Notes: generated by a model not told the origin, from the sequence alone. Shown: positions 3,654-39,784, numbered from the stretch's first letter. The stretch is 64,000 bases of DNA from Ignavibacteria bacterium (GCA_026417495.1 JAOADD010000057.1:1-64000), one strand, 5' to 3'. Translations and numbers: made by a program.

Positions 3654-6600
3654 TTGTATTTATCAAAAGTTGAAATATTCGGATTTAAATCATTTCCTGA
3701 TAAAGTAAAGATTGAATTTGCAGAAGGTGTATCTGCTATTGTAGGTCCTAATGGTTGTGGTAAATCAAATATTGTAGATGCTATCAGATGGGCTCTTGGT
3801 GAACAAGGGGATAAAATACTTAGAAGTGAAAAACGGGATGACATTGTATTCAATGGTTCTAAGACACGAAAACCACTTAGTATTGCAGAAGTTTCACTAA
3901 CTTTTGATAACAGTAAAAAAATACTACCTACAGAATATACTGAAGTTAAAATAGCTAGAAGATACTTCAGGAATGGTGAGACGGAATACTTCCTAAATGG
4001 GGTTAAAGTAAGATTGAAAGACATTAGAAATTTATTCCTTGACACAGGTATTGGGCCTGATGCATATTCCGTAATAGAATTAAAAATGGTTGAGACGATA
4101 CTATCACCAATAAAGAATGAACGAAGAAAACTTTTTGAAGAAGCAGCGGGAATAATCTCATACAAACAAAACCGAGATTTAACATATAAACGACTTGAGT
4201 CAGTGAGAGAATCACTTGTAAGGATTAATGATATAATAAGAGAGAAACAACGAAATATTAATATGCTTGAAAGGCAGGTAAAGAAAAATGAGGAAGCAAG
4301 GGCTGTTTTTGAGGATTTGAAAAAGCTTGAGATAATAACAGCAATTGCAGAAACAAACTATTTACAAAATGAAATAAATTCAATAAAAGAAAACGAATCT
4401 ACAAATATATCATTAAAAGAAACACTCTCAAAGAAAATACAAGCCAATGATATTGAAATTGATAAATATACCGAAAAGATTAAAGAGATAGAAGAAAAGC
4501 TTAATGAATCAGAATCAAATTTAAACAAGAAAAAAGATAGTTTAAATAAACTTGAAAAAGAAATTCTTGTTTTAGAACAGAAAATTTCTCATCTTGAAAA
4601 TGATTTAGAAAGACTGCATAATGAAAATATTAATTTAGAAGAAAATATTAAAAATAATCAAGCAAGGAAAGAAGCATTATTACATAGAATTAATATCTTA
4701 AAAAGCACAATAAACATATCCGAAAAATCACTAGCTGAAAAGAAAACAAAACTTGAGGATGCGATAGAACTTATATCAAACAAAAAGAATGAATTAACAT
4801 CATTAGGAACAAAAGTCAAAGAAAAAAATAAACTGCTAAATGAAAAAAGAAGGGAATATGAACAATGCAAAGTTAAATATGATACAAATTTAGATCGTAT
4901 GAAGACAATTTCTTTAATGATAGAAAATAATATTAACAGGCAAAATGCTTATAACAATGAAAAACAAAAATTAGAATCAGAATTACAGATACTTGAAACA
5001 GAGATTAGAAAGATAAATAGTAATTTATCAAACTTACAAGAACAACAAAGCACAATAAAAAATCAAATTGAGAAAGCAGAATCAGAATACAATTTAAAAT
5101 ACTTAGAGCTACAAAAACAAAGAACTAAAATATCACATCTTGAAAATATGTATAATAATCTAGAAGATTATGCTGAAGGTGTTAAATATTTAGTAAATGA
5201 AAAAAAATATAAAGGATTAGTAACAGTTATTGACATAATTGATGTTGACCCAAAATTTAAAACTGCGATTGAAACAGCTTTGGGCGAAGTAGCCAACTAT
5301 TTAATTTTAGAATATTCGGACAAAGTATTTGATCTAATAGAACTGTTAGAAAATAACAATAAAGGTAAAGTTACATTTATCTTATATGATAAACTCTTCG
5401 GAGAGAGAATAAATTTTGTTACTTTTTCTGATGAAAGTTTGGACTTTCTTAATTATGAAGGTGTTTATGGTTTTGCGGATACATTGGTACAATGTAAACA
5501 AAAAAAGTTTGAAAAACTTATTAAATACTTATTAGATGAATATGTGGTAGTTGATAACTTAAATATTGCTTACAAACTTTCTAAGGATAATTATTATAAA
5601 TTCATTACCCTTGATGGTGATATAGTAACAGAAGGTGTTGTTAGAGCAGGTGGCAAAACCAATGAAGAAAGTATCAGATTAGGTAGAGATGAATATATTA
5701 AAAGGCTTAAAACAATAGAGAAAGAGTTAGAAATTAATTTAAAAATAATACAGGATACAATTGAAGAATATAAAAATAAAATAAGAGATTTAAAAGTATC
5801 AGAAACCATAAGTATATTGAATGAATATGAGAAAAGAAAAAGCGTCCTAAATAACGAGATATCCATTATTAATTTTAAAATCGATTCTCTAAATAAAAAT
5901 ATAGATGAGAATAATTTAGTTTATAAGAAATTACAAGAAGAAAATAATCAACTTAAAGATACCTTAAATACGAAAACAGAAGAAATTAGAATTGCAGAGA
6001 ATGAAAATTCGAATCTCGATAAAGAGTTCACATTTTTAACAGATGAATTTAACGAGATAGAAAAATCATATACTGAATATCAAAATGATTATAATAGTTT
6101 CAACCTTGAACTTATTAAATTAAAAAATGAACTAAAAACTGAGGAATCAACACTTGATAGAATAACAAATTCAGTGGAATTGCAGACAAAACAGCTTGAG
6201 AAAAATAAATCTGCAATAGAGAACAGTAATCAAGATTTAAAAGAGAAGCGGGAAAAGATTAAAAGAGATAGAGAGTTATTCGATGAATTAAAGCGAGAAC
6301 AAGAAAAAATATTAGAAGAGTATGATAGCATTAAATTAGAATTAGATAATTTGAGAGAAATTCAAAATAAACTCAATACAGAACAGAGGAACCTCAGGAA
6401 TCAATATGACAGAGTATCTCAAAAATTAATTGACTCACAAATTTTAATTAGAGAATACACTATTAAATCTGAACAGGTAATTGATTATATATTAAGAAAA
6501 TATGATTATAAGATTTCAGATACAGATAAAGTTGATATTGATGATAAATTTATAGAAGAATTTATTAATGAAAATTCTGAATATGATATCATACGGGCAA

Positions 6601-7274
6601 AGAAAAGGATAGAAGAATTAAATGAAAAGTTGAAAAAACTCGGTGGAGGATATCAACAACTTGTATGGGATAGTTTTCAAGAAGAAAAAGATGAATTAGA
6701 AAATATAATTAAGCAAAGGGATGATTTAGTTGAATCTGAAAAACAAATAAGAAAAACTATAGAACGAATAAACACAGAAGCCCGAACAAAATTCCTTAAA
6801 GTATTTGAACAGATAAGGGAGAATTTTATAAAAATTTTCAAGGAACTTTTCCATGAAGGGGATGAAGCAGATTTAAAATTGGTATATGATACCGATGAAG
6901 AAGGTAATATAATAGAAGATCCACTTGAAGCAAAAATAGAAATATCAGCTAAACCAAGAGGAAAAAGACCTACATCAATTGAGTTGTTATCACAAGGGGA
7001 AAAAACTTTAACAGCTATTGCATTGCTTTTCGGAATCTATTTAATAAAACCATCTCCATTCTGTGTTCTTGATGAGGTAGATGCATTACTTGACCCAGCT
7101 AATTTAATCAGATTTAATAAAATGATAAGAAAGTTTTCAGCTAATACTCAATTCATTCTAATTACGCACAATGAAAGAACAATGGAAATGGTTGATAGAT
7201 TATATGGTATCACAATGCAGGAACCTGGTGTTAGTACAATAGTAGAGACAAGATTCAAACCAGTTAGTCAATGA
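3654..7274 (+). CDS. smc: Chromosome segregation protein SMC
   Basis: Structural maintenance of chromosomes ATPase, the core of the condensin-like complex that compacts and segregates DNA. All hallmarks are present over 1206 residues: N-terminal IFGFKSFPDK and Walker A GPNGCGKSN (about 32-40); long coiled coils rich in E/K/N; a hinge around 520-680 ending in a VRAGGKT-like segment; and C-terminal signature LLSQGEKTLTAIALL with Walker B FCVLDEVDALLD. The start is TTG at 3654; no in-frame ATG precedes the conserved MYLSKVEIFGFK. It begins 3 bases after the GH2-like gene and shares ATGA with the HAD gene downstream. ScpA and ScpB are not in this window. Confidence 0.97.
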   Translation: MYLSKVEIFGFKSFPDKVKIEFAEGVSAIVGPNGCGKSNIVDAIRWALGEQGDKILRSEKRDDIVFNGSKTRKPLSIAEVSLTFDNSKKILPTEYTEVKIARRYFRNGETEYFLNGVKVRLKDIRNLFLDTGIGPDAYSVIELKMVETILSPIKNERRKLFEEAAGIISYKQNRDLTYKRLESVRESLVRINDIIREKQRNINMLERQVKKNEEARAVFEDLKKLEIITAIAETNYLQNEINSIKENESTNISLKETLSKKIQANDIEIDKYTEKIKEIEEKLNESESNLNKKKDSLNKLEKEILVLEQKISHLENDLERLHNENINLEENIKNNQARKEALLHRINILKSTINISEKSLAEKKTKLEDAIELISNKKNELTSLGTKVKEKNKLLNEKRREYEQCKVKYDTNLDRMKTISLMIENNINRQNAYNNEKQKLESELQILETEIRKINSNLSNLQEQQSTIKNQIEKAESEYNLKYLELQKQRTKISHLENMYNNLEDYAEGVKYLVNEKKYKGLVTVIDIIDVDPKFKTAIETALGEVANYLILEYSDKVFDLIELLENNNKGKVTFILYDKLFGERINFVTFSDESLDFLNYEGVYGFADTLVQCKQKKFEKLIKYLLDEYVVVDNLNIAYKLSKDNYYKFITLDGDIVTEGVVRAGGKTNEESIRLGRDEYIKRLKTIEKELEINLKIIQDTIEEYKNKIRDLKVSETISILNEYEKRKSVLNNEISIINFKIDSLNKNIDENNLVYKKLQEENNQLKDTLNTKTEEIRIAENENSNLDKEFTFLTDEFNEIEKSYTEYQNDYNSFNLELIKLKNELKTEESTLDRITNSVELQTKQLEKNKSAIENSNQDLKEKREKIKRDRELFDELKREQEKILEEYDSIKLELDNLREIQNKLNTEQRNLRNQYDRVSQKLIDSQILIREYTIKSEQVIDYILRKYDYKISDTDKVDIDDKFIEEFINENSEYDIIRAKKRIEELNEKLKKLGGGYQQLVWDSFQEEKDELENIIKQRDDLVESEKQIRKTIERINTEARTKFLKVFEQIRENFIKIFKELFHEGDEADLKLVYDTDEEGNIIEDPLEAKIEISAKPRGKRPTSIELLSQGEKTLTAIALLFGIYLIKPSPFCVLDEVDALLDPANLIRFNKMIRKFSANTQFILITHNERTMEMVDRLYGITMQEPGVSTIVETRFKPVSQ

Positions 7275-29740: not shown

Positions 29741-30535
29741 TTAATAATAGGAATACCAGAAAGATACTCCGCCTGTTGGGCCTATACCAATATTTTTTCC
29801 GTAAGGGACAAGCTCTGTAAATATTCCCAAACCAACGTTCTTGCTAACTCTAAAAAGTAATGTTCCCCCAACTTTAAGAACTCTAAAATTTGTGTTTACA
29901 GAATGGGCATATTCAGCACCAGCAAAAATTGTAAACTTTTTCGATAAATCAATTCCATCAGCAGTGTAAATCCTATATTGGAATTCAGTAAAAACATTCG
30001 CTTTGTAATGTGCTGCTATCCCAAAACTCCAAAACCCGTTTTTGTTAAATGCTCTGTATCCATCACCTATAGCAAATGCTAAATCATATTCAAAAAACTT
30101 TGCTCCAAGTTCGGGTAATTGATTTCTTGGTAAATGAATCGGCAAATCTATGCTGAACAATACCCCAGTTACTGGTTTAGGGTATTCAGTTATTTGATAC
30201 ACTACACCCACTTTTGGATTAGTAAAACCAGCACTCTTATTATCAAGGTATTTATCCTTATATTGTAATGCGGCAAAAGAAAATCCAGTAAAAAGTCCCC
30301 ACTTCTTACCTAACCCGACGGAATACCAAACCCCTAATTCTGCTTTTTGAAATTTTCCATCATTAACAGCACTCCTTAAAATACCATCAGCATCATAATA
30401 CTGATCACTTTCATAATAACGAAAACTGATTATTGCACCATGTTCACCTTTCCTAAGTGCCCATTGTGAAAACGAATTTGATAATTGTATGAAAACAATT
30501 AATAATATAAATAAAAAGACCCTTTTTGCTGCCAA
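29741..30535 (-). CDS. Putative outer-membrane beta-barrel protein
   Basis: A 264-residue exported protein of unknown function. It has a TTG start, a signal segment (RVFLFILLIVFIQLSNSFSQ) and then alternating hydrophobic/polar strands rich in Gly, Tyr and Phe (ISFRYYESDQYY, GVWYSVGLGKKWGLFTGFSF), ending in an aromatic strand (GGVSFWYSYY). This is typical of an 10-12 strand barrel, but no named family is recognised. It converges on pyrE and is divergent from the GT39-like gene at 30616. Confidence 0.72.
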   Translation of the reverse strand: MAAKRVFLFILLIVFIQLSNSFSQWALRKGEHGAIISFRYYESDQYYDADGILRSAVNDGKFQKAELGVWYSVGLGKKWGLFTGFSFAALQYKDKYLDNKSAGFTNPKVGVVYQITEYPKPVTGVLFSIDLPIHLPRNQLPELGAKFFEYDLAFAIGDGYRAFNKNGFWSFGIAAHYKANVFTEFQYRIYTADGIDLSKKFTIFAGAEYAHSVNTNFRVLKVGGTLLFRVSKNVGLGIFTELVPYGKNIGIGPTGGVSFWYSYY

Positions 30536-30615: not shown

Positions 30616-32184
30616 GTGGCAAAATTTATTAAGTTTATTAGGGAGGCAATACAATCTAATTCTGATATTAAAAATTCATTTAGATTTGTAATTTTAATAT
30701 CAGCAATTGTCGGACTCATTGCTCAGGTTTTATCTTATACAGATGGGTTAGTACTAGCCTATAATGACGCTGGACTCCATCTTGATGTTGCAAGAAGAAT
30801 ATATGATTCAAGAGATCCAGGTATAATTAATCAGATCGGAATTATTTGGCTGCCAGTACCACATCTAATTTATATACCACTAGTGTATTTTGATTTCCTA
30901 TGGGTAACAGGTTTAGCAGGATGTATTGTCGGGTTTATCTGCTTTATTATTTCATCAGGGTTTTTGTATAAGGTTATTAGAACTATCACAGGAGAAAACA
31001 TCTCTGCCCTTTTAGGGACAGCATTTTTCGTTTTCAACCCTAACATACTTTATCTTTATACTACTGCAATGACAGAACCAATATTCCTGATGTTTATAAT
31101 ACTTGCAATTTATCACATATTGAATTGGGAAAAAACTGAATTCTCAGGTGAACTGGTTAGAGCAGGAATAATTTTAGGGTTAGCATCTCTTACCCGATAT
31201 GAAGCTTGGGGATTTTTCGTTGTATTAACATTTGTTGTATTATTAGTTGCAATAATTGAAAAGAAAAAGCACCCAATTAAATCTATCATATATTTTTCAT
31301 TTGTACCAATTGCCTGCATTGCCTGGTATTTATGGTTAAATTACTCTTTACATGGTGATATTTTAACTTTTCAAAGAGGACCATATTCAAGCGAGTTTCA
31401 AGTGAATCTTCGTTATTCAAGCATTGGTGGACCTCCTTACAAATATAATTTAGATGCATCACTAGATATATTAAATACCACACTCATCTCTAATACTGGT
31501 TTTGTAATGGCAGCATTAGCATTTATTGGGATAATATTATTCATCGTTAGGAGAAAATTCTCTGTCTTTTGTCTAATTCCACTTGCTATGCTGGTATTTT
31601 ACATCTTAAACTTGATATCACTATACTACGGACAAGTATCAATAGAAACACCAAAAACAATACCCAAGGGTTATTTTCAGACAAGATATGTCGTTGGAAT
31701 CATTCCTGGTTTATGCGTTTTCGTTGGATACTTTTTCACAATAATAAAAGAAATTAATTTCAAGATAGTTGCATTCTGTATATTTATATTTTTAGAATTT
31801 ATGAGCTGGTATATCGTTTGGCCTATGGGTGTTCCTGCTATTGGAGAAGCAAAGTCTGCTATTATGCTTTCTCAACCTTTTAGAAGAACAGCAAATTATT
31901 TAAAATCTTACTATGATGGTGGTAATATTTTATATGATGACTTTTCAATAATCTTCTTTTCAGGCAGTGGAATCCCGATGAAAGATAGAATTCATGAATA
32001 TACTTGGGATGTAGGAAATCAAGCATTAAGTAAACCATCAACAGTAGTCAGGTGGGTAATGTTTAATAAATTAAACCCCAATGATAAGATTTATATTGCA
32101 ATGAAAAATAATTTAGACTTTGCGGAAAATTTTAAATTGATGTATCATGATGAAGGTATAGAGGTATATAAACGAAAATTTTAA
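30616..32184 (+). CDS. Multi-pass GT39-like membrane protein, paralogue A
   Basis: A 522-residue protein with about ten TM helices and a short soluble C-terminus. The first periplasmic loop carries an acidic/His motif (YNDAGLHLDVARRIYD), positioned like the catalytic loop of polyprenyl-phosphate-dependent GT-C enzymes (GT39/ArnT type). SLTRYEAWG in the middle is another recurrent GT39-like motif. It aligns clearly by eye with the convergent gene at 32188-33750 through the N-terminal 120 residues, the RYEAW motif, FQRGPYSS/FQRGEYSS and the C-terminal MKDRIHEYTW/MKERINKHTF segment. The start is GTG at 30616. Likely role: transfer of a lipid-linked sugar onto an envelope acceptor. Confidence 0.78.
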   Translation: MAKFIKFIREAIQSNSDIKNSFRFVILISAIVGLIAQVLSYTDGLVLAYNDAGLHLDVARRIYDSRDPGIINQIGIIWLPVPHLIYIPLVYFDFLWVTGLAGCIVGFICFIISSGFLYKVIRTITGENISALLGTAFFVFNPNILYLYTTAMTEPIFLMFIILAIYHILNWEKTEFSGELVRAGIILGLASLTRYEAWGFFVVLTFVVLLVAIIEKKKHPIKSIIYFSFVPIACIAWYLWLNYSLHGDILTFQRGPYSSEFQVNLRYSSIGGPPYKYNLDASLDILNTTLISNTGFVMAALAFIGIILFIVRRKFSVFCLIPLAMLVFYILNLISLYYGQVSIETPKTIPKGYFQTRYVVGIIPGLCVFVGYFFTIIKEINFKIVAFCIFIFLEFMSWYIVWPMGVPAIGEAKSAIMLSQPFRRTANYLKSYYDGGNILYDDFSIIFFSGSGIPMKDRIHEYTWDVGNQALSKPSTVVRWVMFNKLNPNDKIYIAMKNNLDFAENFKLMYHDEGIEVYKRKF

Positions 32185-32187
32185 AAT

Positions 32188-33750
32188 TCAATCACCAATT
32201 CTCTTATATATTTCCAGACCTCTATCAACATAGACTATCTTAAAGTTTGCTTTAAAATCAGGTGAACTTTTTAGGTGAAATAATACTTCATCGTTTATTC
32301 TACTATCTACCATAATCCAACCAACAACAAGAGATGGGCTTCTTAAAGCAATTTCACCGAACTTAAAAGTATGTTTATTAATTCTTTCCTTCATTGGAAT
32401 CCTGCAAAAAGGATATAAATTCAGATTTTTGTCATCAAAAAGAATTTTTTTGCCATTGTAATGATTCTTTAAAAATATCGATGCTCTTTTCAATTCTGGT
32501 TGGTAAGTATCAAAATAATACGCTTCTTCAATCGAACCAGCAGAATATGGATAATTGATAATCCAACTAAAAGAAAAAATCAGAATAATAAACAATCCAA
32601 CAATTCTATATAATTTTTTATAAGAAATTCTATCATATAAATAACCAACAAAGTAAATGATAAATGGAAAAGCAAACAAGCCATATCTAGCATTGAAATA
32701 ACCAGGTGGAGTTGTATTTGGAAGCAAAACTGCAACTTGTCCTAAAAAAAGTGATGCGATTCCCACTATAAAAACAGTAATATTAGCATAAGGTATTAAA
32801 GATTTTTCAGAAAATTTAAACCTTTTATAATATATAACAAGACCTATTAGTGATAGAAGAAAAAAGAAAAAATTGATATTAGAGAATATAGCTTTAAAAT
32901 AAATTTCTATAGCAATAATAATATTTCCTTTTGCTGGTAAATTTCCTGCTTCCTCAAAAGGTTTCATAAGAGCTTGAGAAGAATATTCCCCTCTTTGAAA
33001 ATCAAGTGGATCATTGAAGAAAATCCAGTTATATAATAACCAAAGGAAAATAAAAAATAAAGGGACCGAATAATATAAAAACAGACCTCTTATCGGGTTT
33101 CTTTTCCTTTTAATGTATATAATTGCAATAACTATAGCAACAAAACTTGTATAAAGCCATGCCTCGTACCGAGTGCCCATTGCTAAAGCGGAAAAAAAAC
33201 CAGCAGCTATTAAGTCAAATTTCTTTCTATAATCTTGCCACTTAATTAAAAAATATAAAGCTGTAATTAAGAACATATAGAATACTGGTTCCGTCATTGC
33301 GGTGGTTTGGAAATATAAAATATTGGGATTTAAAGCAAAAAGAGTAAAAGTTACCCATTTAGTCCATCCCTTTTCAGTAATTAATTCCCCAATCCTGAAT
33401 GAATTATAGCAGGTAATCACATAACAGAATAAACCTAAAATACACCCCGCTAAACCAGTATACCATAGATAATCAATATAAGCTAATGGCATAAGTAAGA
33501 TATGCGGAATAGGAAGCCAAACGGTTCCCATTTGAGATAGCACACCAGGAGTAATTGAGTCAAAAAACCTTCTTGCACTATCAAGATGAGTAACTGCATC
33601 CCGATATGAAAAAATCAAATCATTTATATAAAAATAAACTTGAGCTAATAAACCAGTGATAATAGATATAATTAATGCTGCAATTCTCCCCGACCGATAC
33701 TCGAAAAAATTTTTTACTCCGCTCTTAAAAGTATTAATTAACCAATGCAA
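32188..33750 (-). CDS. Multi-pass GT39-like membrane protein, paralogue B
   Basis: A 520-residue, approximately ten-TM protein, homologous along its length to the convergent gene at 30616-32184. The first-loop motif is SYRDAVTHLDSARRFFD. The GTRYEAWLY and FQRGEYSSQ motifs, and a soluble C-terminal domain ending in DRGLEIYKRIGD, are shared. It lies 34 bases after the MshEN-GT2 gene on the same strand, placing it last in the exopolysaccharide series. Only 3 bases separate the two paralogues' stop codons. A polyprenyl-phosphate sugar transferase is inferred from the topology and loop motif. Confidence 0.78.
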   Translation of the reverse strand: MHWLINTFKSGVKNFFEYRSGRIAALIISIITGLLAQVYFYINDLIFSYRDAVTHLDSARRFFDSITPGVLSQMGTVWLPIPHILLMPLAYIDYLWYTGLAGCILGLFCYVITCYNSFRIGELITEKGWTKWVTFTLFALNPNILYFQTTAMTEPVFYMFLITALYFLIKWQDYRKKFDLIAAGFFSALAMGTRYEAWLYTSFVAIVIAIIYIKRKRNPIRGLFLYYSVPLFFIFLWLLYNWIFFNDPLDFQRGEYSSQALMKPFEEAGNLPAKGNIIIAIEIYFKAIFSNINFFFFLLSLIGLVIYYKRFKFSEKSLIPYANITVFIVGIASLFLGQVAVLLPNTTPPGYFNARYGLFAFPFIIYFVGYLYDRISYKKLYRIVGLFIILIFSFSWIINYPYSAGSIEEAYYFDTYQPELKRASIFLKNHYNGKKILFDDKNLNLYPFCRIPMKERINKHTFKFGEIALRSPSLVVGWIMVDSRINDEVLFHLKSSPDFKANFKIVYVDRGLEIYKRIGD

Positions 33751-33784
33751 AGTATTTTTATATTTAACATTTATGCAAAAAAAA

Positions 33785-35761
33785 TTATGCTTTCTCAGGA
33801 GTAATTTTTCTAGCTTTAACTTGATTTATTATTTCTTCAATTTCTGAAGAACTTGCCTTTGGTTTATATGAAGTTAAACCGTGTTGAGTTTTTTCCCAAT
33901 AAAATGGTTTGGTTATTAATTGCAATGTACCTTTCCACGCAGCATAACTCATCAATACCCAATAAAAAGGTATTAAAATAGCAAATGGAATAGAAGTATA
34001 GTGTTCCTTAATTACAGTGGGACCTATATGCAGAATAATATAAACAAGGTTTCCAAGAATGAGATTAAACTCACAAATAGTTTTAACTTCAGGAGTAAAT
34101 AAAGTAAGAGTTGATTCTGGAAAAATAAAAGTTAGAATAGTAACTAACCATAATAGAGGGTTAACCAATGGGAATAAAATATTAAACCCAAAAGTAAGAA
34201 TAAAATAAAAAGTTTGCTTAACACCGAGTTTTCTGAACAATTTAATTGGGTGTCTCATATGTACAAAAAATGTCTGCACATAACCCTTTATCCAACGAGA
34301 GCGTTGCCGTATCCAATTACCAACTTTTAAATTTGCTTCCTCAAGTGTATATGAATTTAGCATTGCAGTTTTATACCTCTTCTGAGAAATCCTCACACCT
34401 AAATCTGCATCTTCTGTCACATTATATGGATCCCATCCACCAAGTTCTTTTAATGTTTTCGTTTTGAAATGGTTACTTGTTCCACCTAATGGTAAAGGTG
34501 CTCCTGATATATCAAGACCTTGCAACCAGTAATCAAACCAGAAAGTATATTCAAGTGCAAACCACCTTGCAAGTAAATTTTCTTTCGGATTATAGAAGTT
34601 TAAATGCGCTTGCAAGCAAGCATATTCATCACCTAATTTCTGAAATGCAACAATTGCTTTCTTTAATTGATCAGGCTCTGGTTCATCTTCTGCATCATAA
34701 ATAACTATATGTTCACCATATGCTCTATAAAGTCCATAGTTACATGCTCTTGGTTTTGTTTTTATTGGAGAATCAGGAATAATAATCGGGTCAAACATTT
34801 TCACCATTTCTTTATAATATTCTTTGGACAATCCAAATAACGTAACTTCAGGTTCACCAATTAAACCATATTTTTTACATGCTTCTATTGTTTCTGTATC
34901 TTTCTCTTCAATTAAAATTTTTATATCAAGTTTTTCCTTAGGATAATCGAGTTTATTCATATTATTAATAATATTCGGAATAACCTCTGCTTCTTTATAT
35001 ACAGGTATTAAAATTGTATACATGGGTAGTGAACCTTCATCTAATGCTCTGACTTCTGGTTGTGTTATATTAACTTTTCTTCTTATACTTTCAAAACCTT
35101 TAAGAGCAATAATAAGTTTAAATGGATTAATTATGAAATAAATTAGATTAATTATTAAAAATAGTAGGAAAAAAACTCTCCCAGGTTCTAAAATAAGAAG
35201 TATAAAGAAAATTATTATAGATACAATTAAAAAATTTTTTTGCCAGTTATAAAGAACCTTAGATGCAGAGTATTCAGGAGATTTGAGTCGAAGTTCATTC
35301 ATTGCTTTAACACTGTGAATCTCTTTATATCCTTCATCTAGCACATACTCAATCGCTTCTGCAGAAGTAATATATATTTCAACTTTTCTTTTAAAAATCT
35401 TTTCAAGTTCTCTAAATAGTGGAAAATTAAAAGGATTGGCTATTGCTAAAACAATTTTATCAGTTTTGACCTGCAAAAGAAATATTAGATTTTTATACAT
35501 TACACTATATGGTAATGTAGTAGCTCTATGTGTAATTTCTTTTAATAAAGCAGTTTCAAAGTATGGTAAATCAAGATACTTTGCCAGTTCCTTATAAAAA
35601 TCTTCAGGAGGATATATTTTTTTATCACGAAGAGTGTATAATAAAGTTCTTAATTTCATCTCCTTCTTGGAAAATATAGCATCCGGATTATATCCGTATT
35701 TCCTTAGAAGGTCAAAAACGAAATTAAGAAGCTTTTTCTCATAACTAGATTTAAAAATCAT
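33785..35761 (-). CDS. Processive GT2 polysaccharide synthase with N-terminal MshEN-like domain
   Basis: A 658-residue inner-membrane synthase. Residues about 1-150 resemble the T2SSE_N/MshEN domain: KLRTLLYTLRDKK, KELAKYLDLPYFE, then IVLAIANPFNFPLFRELE and ending VEIYITSAEAIEYVLDEGY. Two TM helices (about 170-215) follow. The GT2 core (MYTILIPVYKEAEVI, IVIYDAEDEPEPDQL, TEDADLGVRI, RQRSRWIKGY) contains all D, DxD, TED and QxxRW-type elements of processive synthases. Four or so TM helices close it. MshEN domains can bind c-di-GMP, and E. coli NfrB also joins MshEN and GT2. The RLG motif is KLR here, so binding is uncertain. The bcsB-like gene ends 5 bases upstream. Confidence 0.87.
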   Translation of the reverse strand: MIFKSSYEKKLLNFVFDLLRKYGYNPDAIFSKKEMKLRTLLYTLRDKKIYPPEDFYKELAKYLDLPYFETALLKEITHRATTLPYSVMYKNLIFLLQVKTDKIVLAIANPFNFPLFRELEKIFKRKVEIYITSAEAIEYVLDEGYKEIHSVKAMNELRLKSPEYSASKVLYNWQKNFLIVSIIIFFILLILEPGRVFFLLFLIINLIYFIINPFKLIIALKGFESIRRKVNITQPEVRALDEGSLPMYTILIPVYKEAEVIPNIINNMNKLDYPKEKLDIKILIEEKDTETIEACKKYGLIGEPEVTLFGLSKEYYKEMVKMFDPIIIPDSPIKTKPRACNYGLYRAYGEHIVIYDAEDEPEPDQLKKAIVAFQKLGDEYACLQAHLNFYNPKENLLARWFALEYTFWFDYWLQGLDISGAPLPLGGTSNHFKTKTLKELGGWDPYNVTEDADLGVRISQKRYKTAMLNSYTLEEANLKVGNWIRQRSRWIKGYVQTFFVHMRHPIKLFRKLGVKQTFYFILTFGFNILFPLVNPLLWLVTILTFIFPESTLTLFTPEVKTICEFNLILGNLVYIILHIGPTVIKEHYTSIPFAILIPFYWVLMSYAAWKGTLQLITKPFYWEKTQHGLTSYKPKASSSEIEEIINQVKARKITPEKA

Positions 35762-35766
35762 TTTTC

Positions 35767-37827
35767 TTATATTTTTGCAGAACTACGCTTCCTAATATAC
35801 CTGATTATTAAATAGGCAATGATTAATATGACTATTATTCCTCCTATCAAATATCTTAATGGTATATTTTTTAAAGGACCACTTACAGTTTCAACTATAA
35901 ATCTTTTTTCAGGGGTAGAAAGAGGTATTACTTCAGATTCCTTTGAGATTAAACAAACCTGCCCGTCTATCTTAGAAATCTTTTCAGGAATAGTAAGAGC
36001 ATCAGCAATATTGCTCACCCCAGCAGCATTATTAGGTAAGATAGCATATACAACACCATTTGCATTCCATGGTGACTCAAAAGCTTCAATAATGTTCATA
36101 TTTTTTAATGTTTCATTAGATGTTTCAATCTTTGGGTCAATTATAAAATTATTATCATTTGTAGGTTTTACTAACATTTTATCCTTAAAATAACTCCATC
36201 TTTGTAAATCATTCGGATAACCAATAACGAATAAAACATTTGCATCTGATTTAAATCTATCGTCTATATCATTAGAAAGTACAACTTTGGGATCTATTCT
36301 CTTTTTAAGAGTTTGCCCCGCTCTTGCTGAGATAATTGATGCTATTTTTATTAACTCATCATTAGCATTATCTGGTAACCAGAAATAAATTTTCTTAATA
36401 CTTTCTTCATCCAAACCAATCATATTTGGAAAATCGACTAAACTCGGTTTTACTTCTGTTCCCCCTGGAGCAAGATAAATTTCAGATTTTCCTTCAATCA
36501 ATGTCCACACAGAATTATCATAATCATAGGTGCAATTAATCTCCTCAATTGAACCGACATAATGATATACAACAAAACTAATAACCCAGGAAGGTTTATT
36601 TAATTCCGACTCTGGTATTTTTACAACTAACTCACCTCCCTTAACATTCTCAGGACCTAAGGATATGCTACCTGCTGGTACTCCATTTATATATATAGAA
36701 AGCAGAGATTGTTTTTTATCCAGATTTTCTGAATGATAGAAATATAATTTTATATATGATTCTATCCCCGCTCCGTATCTAACAGGTCTTCTAACAACTA
36801 CAACTTTGCTTTGTGTGAATACCCCTTCTAAATAAATTTGAGGTAAACCTAAATCTGTTAGTAAAAATAGCCCCTGTTTTGGTAAATTGTAGTCTTCTAC
36901 ATTTTCAGGAAAAGACCTTGTTACAAATTGAAAACTTTCATCATTCTGAGGTAGTATATTTGGAGAAAGCAAAGAATATAATGCTTTGCTGATGCTACTT
37001 TTATCAGCACCCGTTATGTAAATTTGTTGATAATTTCCTTCTCTTGTCTGATAAAGATATCCATTACCTTGTGGAATATTTGCTGTTATCTTACCTTTTA
37101 ATTTACTAAAATCACTAATATAAACTCTATTTTCATTTGGGGATTCATCAATTTTTGAAGAAAAATTAATATTCAACCCTCGGAAAGGAACCCTTGCACC
37201 CCAATCACTTACTAATTTCATTAAATATTCAATTTCTTCATTGCTATATGGTTGTGGTACTACAATTTTACAATTTATAGGGTTATCTCTCAAATAATTC
37301 AAATAAGGAAAAGGGAATCTATATAAAGCAAGTGGATTACTTAATGTTAACTCAAGGTGTAAGTTTGAAGAATTTTTAATACGCACCCAGTTCGCTTTAT
37401 TATAAAGGTCTTTGCACGGGTCATCGGTTGTTCTTTGTAGGGTAGTTATTAATATTGTATTGTATCCTGCTATAATGTATTCAGGTGGTATATTCACTCT
37501 CCAAACAGCAGTATCAGGTGTTTTTGCATTAATATAAATGCTTGAGAGTGGTTTACCATTAATATGCAAAGTCATGAAACTTGCACTACTTAAAATAACT
37601 TCGGAATTCGTGTAAACTATATCGATATGAGTATTACCTGTTGCTTTGCTAAGAGGCATTATTTGAAAATATCCATATAGAGCCCCCAAAGGTCCCATTA
37701 TTACTTCTGTTTCAGGAAAGATTTTAAAGTCGTATACTCTTGTACCCTCCTCTACTTGTGAATATGATAATCCAAAAGTAAAACAGAAAACAAGTACAAT
37801 AAGAAGTAGAATATTTATTTTTTTCAT
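35767..37827 (-). CDS. BcsB-like periplasmic polysaccharide-secretion protein
   Basis: A 686-residue exported protein: signal peptide (about 1-24), a large periplasmic part, and one C-terminal TM helix (about 658-678, LIGGIIVILIIAYLIIRY) with a basic tail. Two repeated jelly-roll/flavodoxin-like halves are suggested: SFMTLHINGKPLSSIYI with IPPEYIIAGYNTILITT and later LLSIYINGVPAGSISL with VKIPESELNKPSW. This matches BcsB, which forms the periplasmic channel partner of the cellulose synthase. Immediate linkage to a GT2 synthase supports this. The polymer is not necessarily cellulose, and no bcsC or bcsZ homologue is present. Confidence 0.8.
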   Translation of the reverse strand: MKKINILLLIVLVFCFTFGLSYSQVEEGTRVYDFKIFPETEVIMGPLGALYGYFQIMPLSKATGNTHIDIVYTNSEVILSSASFMTLHINGKPLSSIYINAKTPDTAVWRVNIPPEYIIAGYNTILITTLQRTTDDPCKDLYNKANWVRIKNSSNLHLELTLSNPLALYRFPFPYLNYLRDNPINCKIVVPQPYSNEEIEYLMKLVSDWGARVPFRGLNINFSSKIDESPNENRVYISDFSKLKGKITANIPQGNGYLYQTREGNYQQIYITGADKSSISKALYSLLSPNILPQNDESFQFVTRSFPENVEDYNLPKQGLFLLTDLGLPQIYLEGVFTQSKVVVVRRPVRYGAGIESYIKLYFYHSENLDKKQSLLSIYINGVPAGSISLGPENVKGGELVVKIPESELNKPSWVISFVVYHYVGSIEEINCTYDYDNSVWTLIEGKSEIYLAPGGTEVKPSLVDFPNMIGLDEESIKKIYFWLPDNANDELIKIASIISARAGQTLKKRIDPKVVLSNDIDDRFKSDANVLFVIGYPNDLQRWSYFKDKMLVKPTNDNNFIIDPKIETSNETLKNMNIIEAFESPWNANGVVYAILPNNAAGVSNIADALTIPEKISKIDGQVCLISKESEVIPLSTPEKRFIVETVSGPLKNIPLRYLIGGIIVILIIAYLIIRYIRKRSSAKI

Positions 37828-37847
37828 TTTAATATAAATTAAATTAT

Positions 37848-38288
37848 TTATTCATCTAATTTATTTAATCTATCTTCAATCCACTGTGAGATTCTATCAT
37901 CTGTAAGCATTTCATTCTTAGCTTGTTCTTCAAGTTTCTCTTCTAATAACTTTAATAACTCAGCAGGGTTAACTGGTTTCATAATATATGCGTTAGCACC
38001 AAGATTTAAAGATTCAACCGCATTATCTATATCAGCAAAACCTGTTATCATAATTTTAATCATACCAGGTCTTATTTTTTTAATTTCTTTAAGAACTTCA
38101 GTTCCATCTTTATCGGGTAATTTAATATCCAATAAAGCAGCATTAAAATTTGTTTTTTTAATCAGCTTTATACCATCCTTTGCTGTTGATGCAGTTTCTA
38201 CTTCATAACCCTGCTTTTTTAAAATAGTTTCAAATGATTTTAAAATTCCTAAATCATCATCAACAACTAATATTTTTTTGGGATTCAT
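37848..38288 (-). CDS. Single-domain response regulator
   Basis: A 146-residue CheY-like receiver. KKILVVDDDLGI gives the acidic pocket, AALLDIKLPDKDG (Asp near 53) the phosphorylation site, MITGFAD the Thr switch and IMKPVNP the conserved Lys. About 25 residues follow with no DNA-binding or enzymatic output domain. Its ATG overlaps the stop of the upstream kinase by 4 bases, and bcsB lies 20 bases downstream. Output probably goes through protein interaction, or it relays phosphate. Confidence 0.92.
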   Translation of the reverse strand: MNPKKILVVDDDLGILKSFETILKKQGYEVETASTAKDGIKLIKKTNFNAALLDIKLPDKDGTEVLKEIKKIRPGMIKIMITGFADIDNAVESLNLGANAYIMKPVNPAELLKLLEEKLEEQAKNEMLTDDRISQWIEDRLNKLDE

Positions 38289-39784
38289 ATTTTATTCTCC
38301 TCTATTAATTCTGGAATTGTTAATTTTACTGTTGTTCCTCTTCCTTCTATACTGTCAACTTCAATTTTACCTTTATGGGCTTCAATAATTCTTTTGCATA
38401 CACTTAACCCTAAACCTGTACCCTTTGCTTTTGTGGTAAATAATGGTTTGAATAAATTAGGCATAACATCCTCTGGAATTCCTCTGCCATTATCAGAAAC
38501 CGTAATAATGTAATTTTTCCTTGATTTCACCGCTTTTATTTTAATTATACCTTCATCTTTCATAGCAGCTTGACTATTAGAAAACAAATTTATAAATAAC
38601 CTTTGCATCAAGTCTTTATCAAAATAAATTTCATTTGCTTTGGGTTCAATTATCACCTGATATTCAATATTATCAAAATTTGCATGTTCTGAAATAATCT
38701 TATATAAAAAAGCTTCCAAATCTACCTTCTTAAAATCAGGTTTTAGATTCTTTCCGTAATATTGCAAATCGGAAACAATCTTATTCATATATTCTACCTG
38801 CTCCATCATTTCATTAAAAATGGCTGCAACTTCATCTATAGCTTGGTTCCCAACCGATTTTTCATTAATGCTTGATTTTGCAATATATATAGAATTTATT
38901 AATACTTGCAAGGGATTTCGTAAATCGTGTCCTACCATTGTTGCTGTCTCTCCAATTGTAGCTAACCTTTCTTTTTCGCGTAACTCTTTTGTTTTTTCTT
39001 CTACAAGTTTTTCAAGATGTTCAGAGTATTTTTTTAATACTAATTGCGTTTTCTTTTGTTCCGTTATATCTCTTGCAATACCAACACTAGCTATTATTTC
39101 TCCATTTTTCTGTTTTATTGGAGTATATGTTAACGATACAGGAAATACAGTTCCATCACTTTTCACACTGTAATAATCACCAGAAAATTTTTTATCATAA
39201 AATTTTTCAAAAACCTTACCACTTTTTTCCCATATAACACCCAAGTTTTTCCCTAAAATTTCTTCTCTATCATATTGATACATTTTACAGAAGGCATCGT
39301 TCACATATATAAATCTATTTCTTGTATCTATGAAAAAAACAGCATCTGTGATATCCTGTATTGCTTGAGAATGCATCTGTATCAAGTCATCCATTTTTTT
39401 TCTTGTTACTGCATTCTCAATAGTAAATGATAACTTTTTTAAATGGGTCATCTCAGGTGTTTTCACAAGATAATCATATGCACCAGATTTCATAGAATTA
39501 ATAGCTATCTCTTCATCACCAGCACCAGTTATTATAATCAAGGGAGCACCTCTTAAATATTTTATCAAATTAATTCCCTCACCATCCCCAAGATAATAAT
39601 CCGCTAAAACAACATCAAATTTATAATTCTTTAACTTCTCAACTGCTTCTTCAAATGAACCAGCTAAAGTTACATTATAAGGATAATTATAAGTTTTAAC
39701 ATAATCATATAATAATTTTTGAGCAATGGTATCATCCTCAGCGTATAAAACCTCATATATAGACTTTTCTGATGTAACTATCAT
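38285..39784 (-). CDS. Hybrid sensor histidine kinase (REC-PAS-HisKA-HATPase)
   Basis: A 499-residue cytoplasmic kinase. An N-terminal receiver (EVLYAEDDTIAQKLL; DVVLADYYLGDGEG, about 8-125) precedes a PAS domain (ITDAVFFIDTRNRFIYVND to GIARDITEQKK, about 135-255). A HisKA domain follows with MVGHDLRNPLQVL (His near 291), then HATPase with INLFSNSQAAM, VSDNGRGIPEDV and TKGTGLGLSVCKRI-like boxes. No TM segment is seen. Because the receiver is at the N-terminus, it may take input from another kinase. It probably phosphorylates the adjacent stand-alone regulator. It heads the polysaccharide series, 147 bases from tsaD. Confidence 0.93.
   Translation of the reverse strand: MIVTSEKSIYEVLYAEDDTIAQKLLYDYVKTYNYPYNVTLAGSFEEAVEKLKNYKFDVVLADYYLGDGEGINLIKYLRGAPLIIITGAGDEEIAINSMKSGAYDYLVKTPEMTHLKKLSFTIENAVTRKKMDDLIQMHSQAIQDITDAVFFIDTRNRFIYVNDAFCKMYQYDREEILGKNLGVIWEKSGKVFEKFYDKKFSGDYYSVKSDGTVFPVSLTYTPIKQKNGEIIASVGIARDITEQKKTQLVLKKYSEHLEKLVEEKTKELREKERLATIGETATMVGHDLRNPLQVLINSIYIAKSSINEKSVGNQAIDEVAAIFNEMMEQVEYMNKIVSDLQYYGKNLKPDFKKVDLEAFLYKIISEHANFDNIEYQVIIEPKANEIYFDKDLMQRLFINLFSNSQAAMKDEGIIKIKAVKSRKNYIITVSDNGRGIPEDVMPNLFKPLFTTKAKGTGLGLSVCKRIIEAHKGKIEVDSIEGRGTTVKLTIPELIEENKI

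Follow-up and report, generated by a model that had tools for sequence, protein, structure and literature searches.

Secretion of bacterial polysaccharides by systems of the xag/sfz/Bcs-like kind is usually switched by cyclic di-GMP (c-di-GMP). Here we examine a probable member of this group at positions 32188-39784 of a 64,000-nucleotide stretch of DNA from Ignavibacteria bacterium (GCA_026417495.1 JAOADD010000057.1:1-64000), the whole of which we call the window. The closest described systems are the xag/sfz/sfb clusters, such as xagABCD of Xanthomonas, sfz1-6 of Mariprofundus and bcsB-xagBCD of Ferriphaselus (PMC4643136, PMC8250860). In stalk-forming iron oxidisers, BcsB beside a fusion of a GSPII domain to a family 2 glycosyltransferase (GT2) has been described as a candidate stalk-polysaccharide cluster (PMC4643136, PMC8250860). 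Also comparable are NfrB/NfrA of E. coli, a c-di-GMP-activated GT2-MshEN synthase with an outer-membrane pore (PMC8669469), and the Bcs cellulose synthase (BcsA-BcsB-BcsZ-BcsC). A search for literature on exopolysaccharide loci of Ignavibacteria gave nothing relevant by title or abstract.

Because the pairing of BcsB with an MshEN-GT2 synthase is already described, the locus in the window is a variant of the xag/sfz kind, and the novelty of that pairing implied by an earlier, sequence-only reading of this DNA falls away (PMC4643136, PMC8250860). The variant is set apart by its loss of c-di-GMP-binding residues and by a receiver/kinase pair. What looks new is the clade to which the synthase belongs. 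Archaea share it, and the gene found most constantly beside the synthase in it encodes a lone receiver that ends in a conserved tail, usually accompanied by a histidine kinase. We think it rather likely that the locus encodes a synthase-dependent machine for exopolysaccharide secretion that belongs with the xag/sfz systems but has lost its c-di-GMP input, with a two-component relay probably in its stead.

All five same-strand genes of the sequence-only reading were recovered as minus-strand open reading frames (ORFs) at 32188-39784, with gaps of 34 bases or less or overlaps. Its domain labels stood for the REC/PAS/kinase, receiver, BcsB and MshEN-GT2 proteins (Pfam) but were weak for the protein called GT39-like, whose PMT_2 match falls below the cut-off. 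The genes, and the domain on which the argument turns, are:

38285-39784, minus strand: hybrid histidine kinase (HK), from ORF call, Pfam and hydropathy
37848-38288, minus strand: lone receiver, overlapping the HK gene by 4 bases
35767-37827, minus strand: BcsB-like periplasmic co-subunit, 20-base gap to the receiver gene
33785-35761, minus strand: MshEN-GT2 synthase, 5-base gap to the BcsB gene
35252-35761, minus strand: MshEN-like domain of the synthase (residues 1-170), with 3 of 14 c-di-GMP positions kept
32188-33750, minus strand: GT-C-type multi-span membrane glycosyltransferase-like protein, 34-base gap to the synthase gene

By sequence and structure prediction, the synthase is an N-terminal MshEN/GSPII domain (residues 1-170) fused to a processive-type GT2. 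The Pfam MshEN match (39.1 bits, cut-off 23.1) covers residues 63-147, and the AlphaFold model of residues 1-170 (predicted local distance difference test, pLDDT, 91) has the GSPII/MshEN fold; profile and model both uphold the MshEN-like N-terminus proposed earlier. Searched with Foldseek, this model matched PilF GSPII-A best, and also the N-domains of MshE and XpsE, c-di-GMP-bound MshE (5htl), the EpsE/GspE N-domain and PilB-PilZ complexes. Pfam matched GT2 families in the synthase as well, and the presence of the catalytic signatures DAED (356-359), TED (449-451) and QxxRW (486-490), the last two invariant throughout the synthase clade, bears out the GT2 assignment. A BcsB-like protein next to a GSPII/MshEN-GT2 with the same signatures is what the xag/sfz clusters have, and bcsB is likewise followed by gt2 in the recovered loci of M. 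ferrooxydans PV-1 (L105) and Ferriphaselus R-1 (L108). In one relative (G005), the synthase orthologue (L038:9700-11790) is broken by a TGA codon in frame, close to where the MshEN-like domain ends; an assembly error or a split gene is possible.

The BcsB-like protein matches PF03170 at 147 bits (cut-off 21) over two BcsB-matching stretches, a profile result that confirms the homology claimed for it. It has a signal peptide and a C-terminal anchor, as does Sfz1, with membrane segments at 4-22 and 660-678 by hydropathy, and it is the only BcsB in the genome; a PDB sequence search with it gave no useful match. This family membership, together with the alignment of the GT2 core to BcsA of known structure (E 9e-14), gives the locus the co-subunit and the catalytic core of a Bcs system and would fit an aberrant bcs operon in which the GT2/BcsB pair makes cellulose. 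However, the locus falls far below the NCBIfam equivalog cut-offs, reaching 78.7 of the 699 bits required by the CelA model and at best 84 of 750 with the BcsB models, and cellulose synthesis was rejected on these values. The locus proteins contain no PilZ match in a Pfam scan, as had been noted from the sequence, and no bcsZ or bcsC was recognised beside the locus (no Pfam match among the locus genes examined; the genome was not searched for them). The synthase lies, moreover, within the family that holds XagB and Sfz2. We regard cellulose as a very improbable product.

The sequence-only reading had the MshEN-like domain take the place of PilZ as a sensor, with c-di-GMP as one of the controls of the locus; neither proposal is supported. 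In MshEN, c-di-GMP is bound by a pair of motifs of 24 residues each (PMC5013675). By motif scoring, neither of the two RLG...Q motifs of MshEN c-di-GMP receptors was found in the window synthase, which scores the same as a shuffled sequence, and 11 of the 14 ligand positions are lost. In the wider family all 14 key positions are present in L063 and L071, and the Xanthomonas, Mariprofundus and Ferriphaselus synthases keep 10-13, in genomes with 27-44 GGDEF matches. GGDEF domains are absent from the organism's own genome (99.8% complete), from all 44 genomes of its order, and from the genomes that hold the archaeal and Aerophobetes relatives of the synthase. They are present in 15 of 15 genomes examined from the rest of the class, whose other families keep one or two. 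The organism thus seems, from its gene content, unable to make c-di-GMP, and control of the synthase by this nucleotide is unlikely.

It could nevertheless be argued that c-di-GMP control through MshEN is retained, as is expected for XagB/Sfz2 and shown for NfrB, and that the phosphorelay is an extra input. The domain does score above the Pfam MshEN cut-off and its fold does match the c-di-GMP-bound 5htl, and the authors of the MshE study remark that the motif may not have to be perfect (PMC5013675). Yet PilF GSPII-A, with deviations described as small, has been shown not to bind c-di-GMP (PMC12002112), whereas here three ligand positions are left and the genome and order are devoid of GGDEF. 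On these last two grounds c-di-GMP control was rejected, and we give its retention only the slightest credence. A separate observation concerns alphaproteobacterial MshEN-GT2 loci (L072, L085, L099, L122, L124), which have a receiver protein of 313-350 aa nearby; the one at L072:13257-14222 matches REC and, below threshold, GGDEF.

The dedicated kinase/receiver pair is the second difference from the xag/sfz clusters. The HK has the order REC-PAS-HisKA-HATPase_c, with REC, PAS and HATPase_c (92 bits) above their Pfam cut-offs and HisKA just under its own (25.3 against 26.9 bits), and it is soluble, with no membrane segment by hydropathy. The receiver protein is a single Response_reg domain (96.5 bits) in which Pfam finds no DNA-binding domain. 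Residues D10, D11, D54, T82 and K104 are invariant in its family, making it phosphorylatable, and the C-terminal tail, W-[IML]-E-x-[RK]-[LI], is conserved in the family too. The pair therefore combines a HisKA/HATPase kinase with a receiver that has a phosphoacceptor aspartate, as a two-component system should. Against a profile of the receiver family the window receiver scores 237 bits, compared with 111 bits for the genome's next-best receiver. Homologous kinases lie beside the synthase in relatives (G001, G002, G008 and G020) and in archaeal loci (L057, L058, L148, L155, L156, L164 and L165), and this linkage supports the earlier view that the phosphorelay belongs to the locus. The receiver and synthase trees also agree (r 0.74, 0 of 5000 permutations) when the fast-evolving L038 is left out; with L038 included, r is 0.49 (15 of 2000 permutations).

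To place the system among its relatives we surveyed 59 genomes, the window organism's own included. A synthase orthologue is present in eight and BcsB in exactly those eight, a co-occurrence in keeping with the earlier reading. A fixed five-gene order across relatives is not supported: the order of the window is kept within its genus, and the neighbourhoods elsewhere show three others, namely BcsB-HK-response regulator-GT2 (G008/G020), BcsB-response regulator-GT2-outer-membrane protein-GT-C (G005) and BcsB-outer-membrane protein-GT2-GT-C-response regulator (G053). A tree of 89 synthases puts the window synthase among those of its order-mates and of records titled Bathyarchaeota, Nitrososphaeria, Methanoregula and Aerophobetes, with the G053/Bacteroidota lineage apart; a more careful tree supports the clade common to Ignavibacteria and archaea at 100/99.

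A survey, at E < 1e-60, of the phyla to which the Nitrososphaeria- and Methanoregula-titled genomes belong gave family matches in 10 genomes of 300 for the former and 6 of 394 for the latter. Linkage of the receiver, usually with a kinase, to the synthase extends from Ignavibacteria to archaea. In the archaeal-titled loci L057, L058 and L059, and in six further loci from these surveys (L148, L155, L156, L158, L164 and L165), a lone receiver bearing the tail described above is encoded beside the synthase, mostly with a kinase and on either strand. Neither BcsB nor the barrel described below was detected in these nine loci; both were seen only in bacterial members of the clade. That the archaeal relatives are purely contamination is disfavoured by the 10 synthase-bearing genomes of 300, one with the gene on a 1.68-Mb contig, and by the 501-kb contig of L058. 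Some doubt remains for the other receiver-bearing archaeal loci, because they lie on shorter contigs. The one archaeal-survey match placed outside the clade is L166 (genome G535, from the phylum of the Methanoregula-titled record). Its synthase, encoded at 4660-6777, has an MshEN motif that looks intact (KLG...Q, RLG) and lies next to a receiver/kinase protein; this may be a misbinned contig or an archaeal c-di-GMP receptor.

Two further genes lie beyond the five:

30616-32184, plus strand: second GT-C protein, a convergent paralogue of 32188-33750 (PMT_2 34.1 bits)
29741-30535, minus strand: outer-membrane beta-barrel with about 12 strands, probably the XagA-like channel through which the polymer leaves, from AlphaFold, Foldseek and co-occurrence

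The sequence-only reading saw no outer-membrane BcsC. This is right in that no BcsC-type gene is among the five, but a barrel gene lies two genes beyond them and co-occurs with the system, so an outer-membrane component is not absent. The AlphaFold model of the barrel (pLDDT 86.8) is closest, by Foldseek, to the COG4313 outer-membrane channel 4rl8 (template-modelling score 0.71) and to the amyloid exporter FapF. Its gene is found in all eight system-bearing genomes, with one further weak match among the 59 (G056, which has a weaker GT2), and adjoins the synthase gene in other genera (G005, G019 and G053). A profile of the window's barrel family also matches the gene before the Xanthomonas GT2 (L087; E 1e-15), which by its position we take to be xagA, and the barrel would thus stand in the place expected of XagA. 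From the model and these matches, the barrel is the probable exit channel for the polymer. An outer-membrane exit protein and a processive GT2 joined to an MshEN domain are also features of NfrB/NfrA; there, however, the MshEN domain is C-terminal and functional, BcsB is unmentioned in PMC8669469, and NfrA has tetratricopeptide (TPR) repeats and a large putative pore region.

The GT-C protein at 32188-33750 has eight hydrophobic membrane segments by hydropathy, and a GT-C homologue follows the synthase in many loci. Its paralogue passes the PMT_2 cut-off; the two types are about 35-38% identical and end 3 bases apart on opposite strands, an arrangement kept in G001 and G002. The GT-C protein stands after the GT2, where the described clusters have an XagC/Sfz3-like membrane protein; the genes in that place in L105 and L087 match neither the GT-C profile nor Pfam.

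Several points weigh against the reading that a two-component relay has replaced c-di-GMP at a secretion locus of this composition. The GT-C assignment of 32188-33750 is weak (PMT_2 17.2 bits, cut-off 26.1; NCBIfam LA3751 35.6 bits, below cut-off), and in G008 and G020 the barrel gene is elsewhere in the genome, unlinked to the synthase locus. The receiver of G005 evolves fast and has no kinase detected next to it, and in the archaeal synthase subclade L149-L154 there is no receiver within the stretch read. Across 54 synthase-bearing loci the motif is absent from 14 of 14 in GGDEF-free genomes and from 10 of 40 in genomes with GGDEF (raw Fisher p 6e-7, relatedness ignored), but the association is not significant in a tree-aware test, because only about two independent lineages are involved, and the statistical link was dropped. 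The raw counts for motif loss against kinase/receiver neighbours (20/32 vs 4/50) are likewise not significant once the tree is considered.

Finally, the adjacency of receiver and synthase could stem from shared transcription or a different target. The kinase and receiver would then form a local two-component system whose only tie to the synthase is the common operon, and would act on a separate target such as a transcription factor or a chemotaxis-like protein, with the MshEN-like domain a structural relic or the binding site of another partner. The interaction of receiver and synthase is indeed argued from linkage and from the match of their trees, not from direct contact, some archaeal relatives have no neighbouring receiver, and GSPII N-domains are known to dock other proteins, as in the EpsE/GspE N-domain and the PilB-PilZ complexes. 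However, the adjacency is kept in distant bacteria and archaea although arrangement and strand vary, so a shared operon is not enough to account for it; the receiver has no DNA-binding domain, and its tree agrees with that of the synthase. We consider a separate target unlikely, but far less so than either cellulose synthesis or retained c-di-GMP control.

In the replacement of c-di-GMP by a relay, as we picture it, the soluble hybrid kinase would phosphorylate the lone receiver, either in one step or via the receiver domain of the kinase itself. Once phosphorylated, the receiver would act directly on the GT2 synthase in the membrane, most likely by docking to it; the likeliest site is the MshEN-like domain, because its fold is kept but its nucleotide-binding residues are lost. 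The activated GT2 would polymerise a sugar chain, predicted to be an exopolysaccharide, and extrude it across the inner membrane; in the periplasm BcsB would take the chain over, and the barrel would release it. The GT-C proteins may add lipid-linked sugars to the chain.

Direct action of the phosphorylated receiver on the synthase, possibly through a nucleotide-blind MshEN domain, is something we infer partly by analogy. In Myxococcus the single-domain receiver EpsW~P activates EpsZ (PMC12802240), so that there too a lone phosphorylatable receiver is thought to act directly on a polysaccharide-making enzyme, although EpsZ is a monotopic phosphoglycosyl transferase and not a GT2 synthase. In Methanobacteriaceae, MTH_548 is a REC domain fused to a BcsA-like glycosyltransferase (PMC5847659); compared by description only, it couples a receiver to a BcsA-like GT2 in archaea, but by gene fusion, whereas the receiver of the window is separate.

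Stand-alone receivers make up about 40% of archaeal response regulators, mostly without inferred function (PMC5847659), and the locus offers a testable target for them. It also suggests that Pfam 'MshEN' matches should not be read as c-di-GMP control without a check of the motif, and its barrel supplies a probable exit channel for synthase systems that have no BcsC. More broadly, this is a natural case in which a sensor domain persists in organisms without a recognisable c-di-GMP-making enzyme, with a candidate substitute encoded alongside. We tentatively propose, as an idea that may well prove wrong, that in the clade of archaeal and Ignavibacteria synthases a domain that once received c-di-GMP now serves as the place where a phosphorylated lone receiver docks. 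Phosphorylation would then have taken over from the second messenger in switching a BcsA-like synthase, and the bacterial members would add BcsB and the barrel for their two-membrane envelope.

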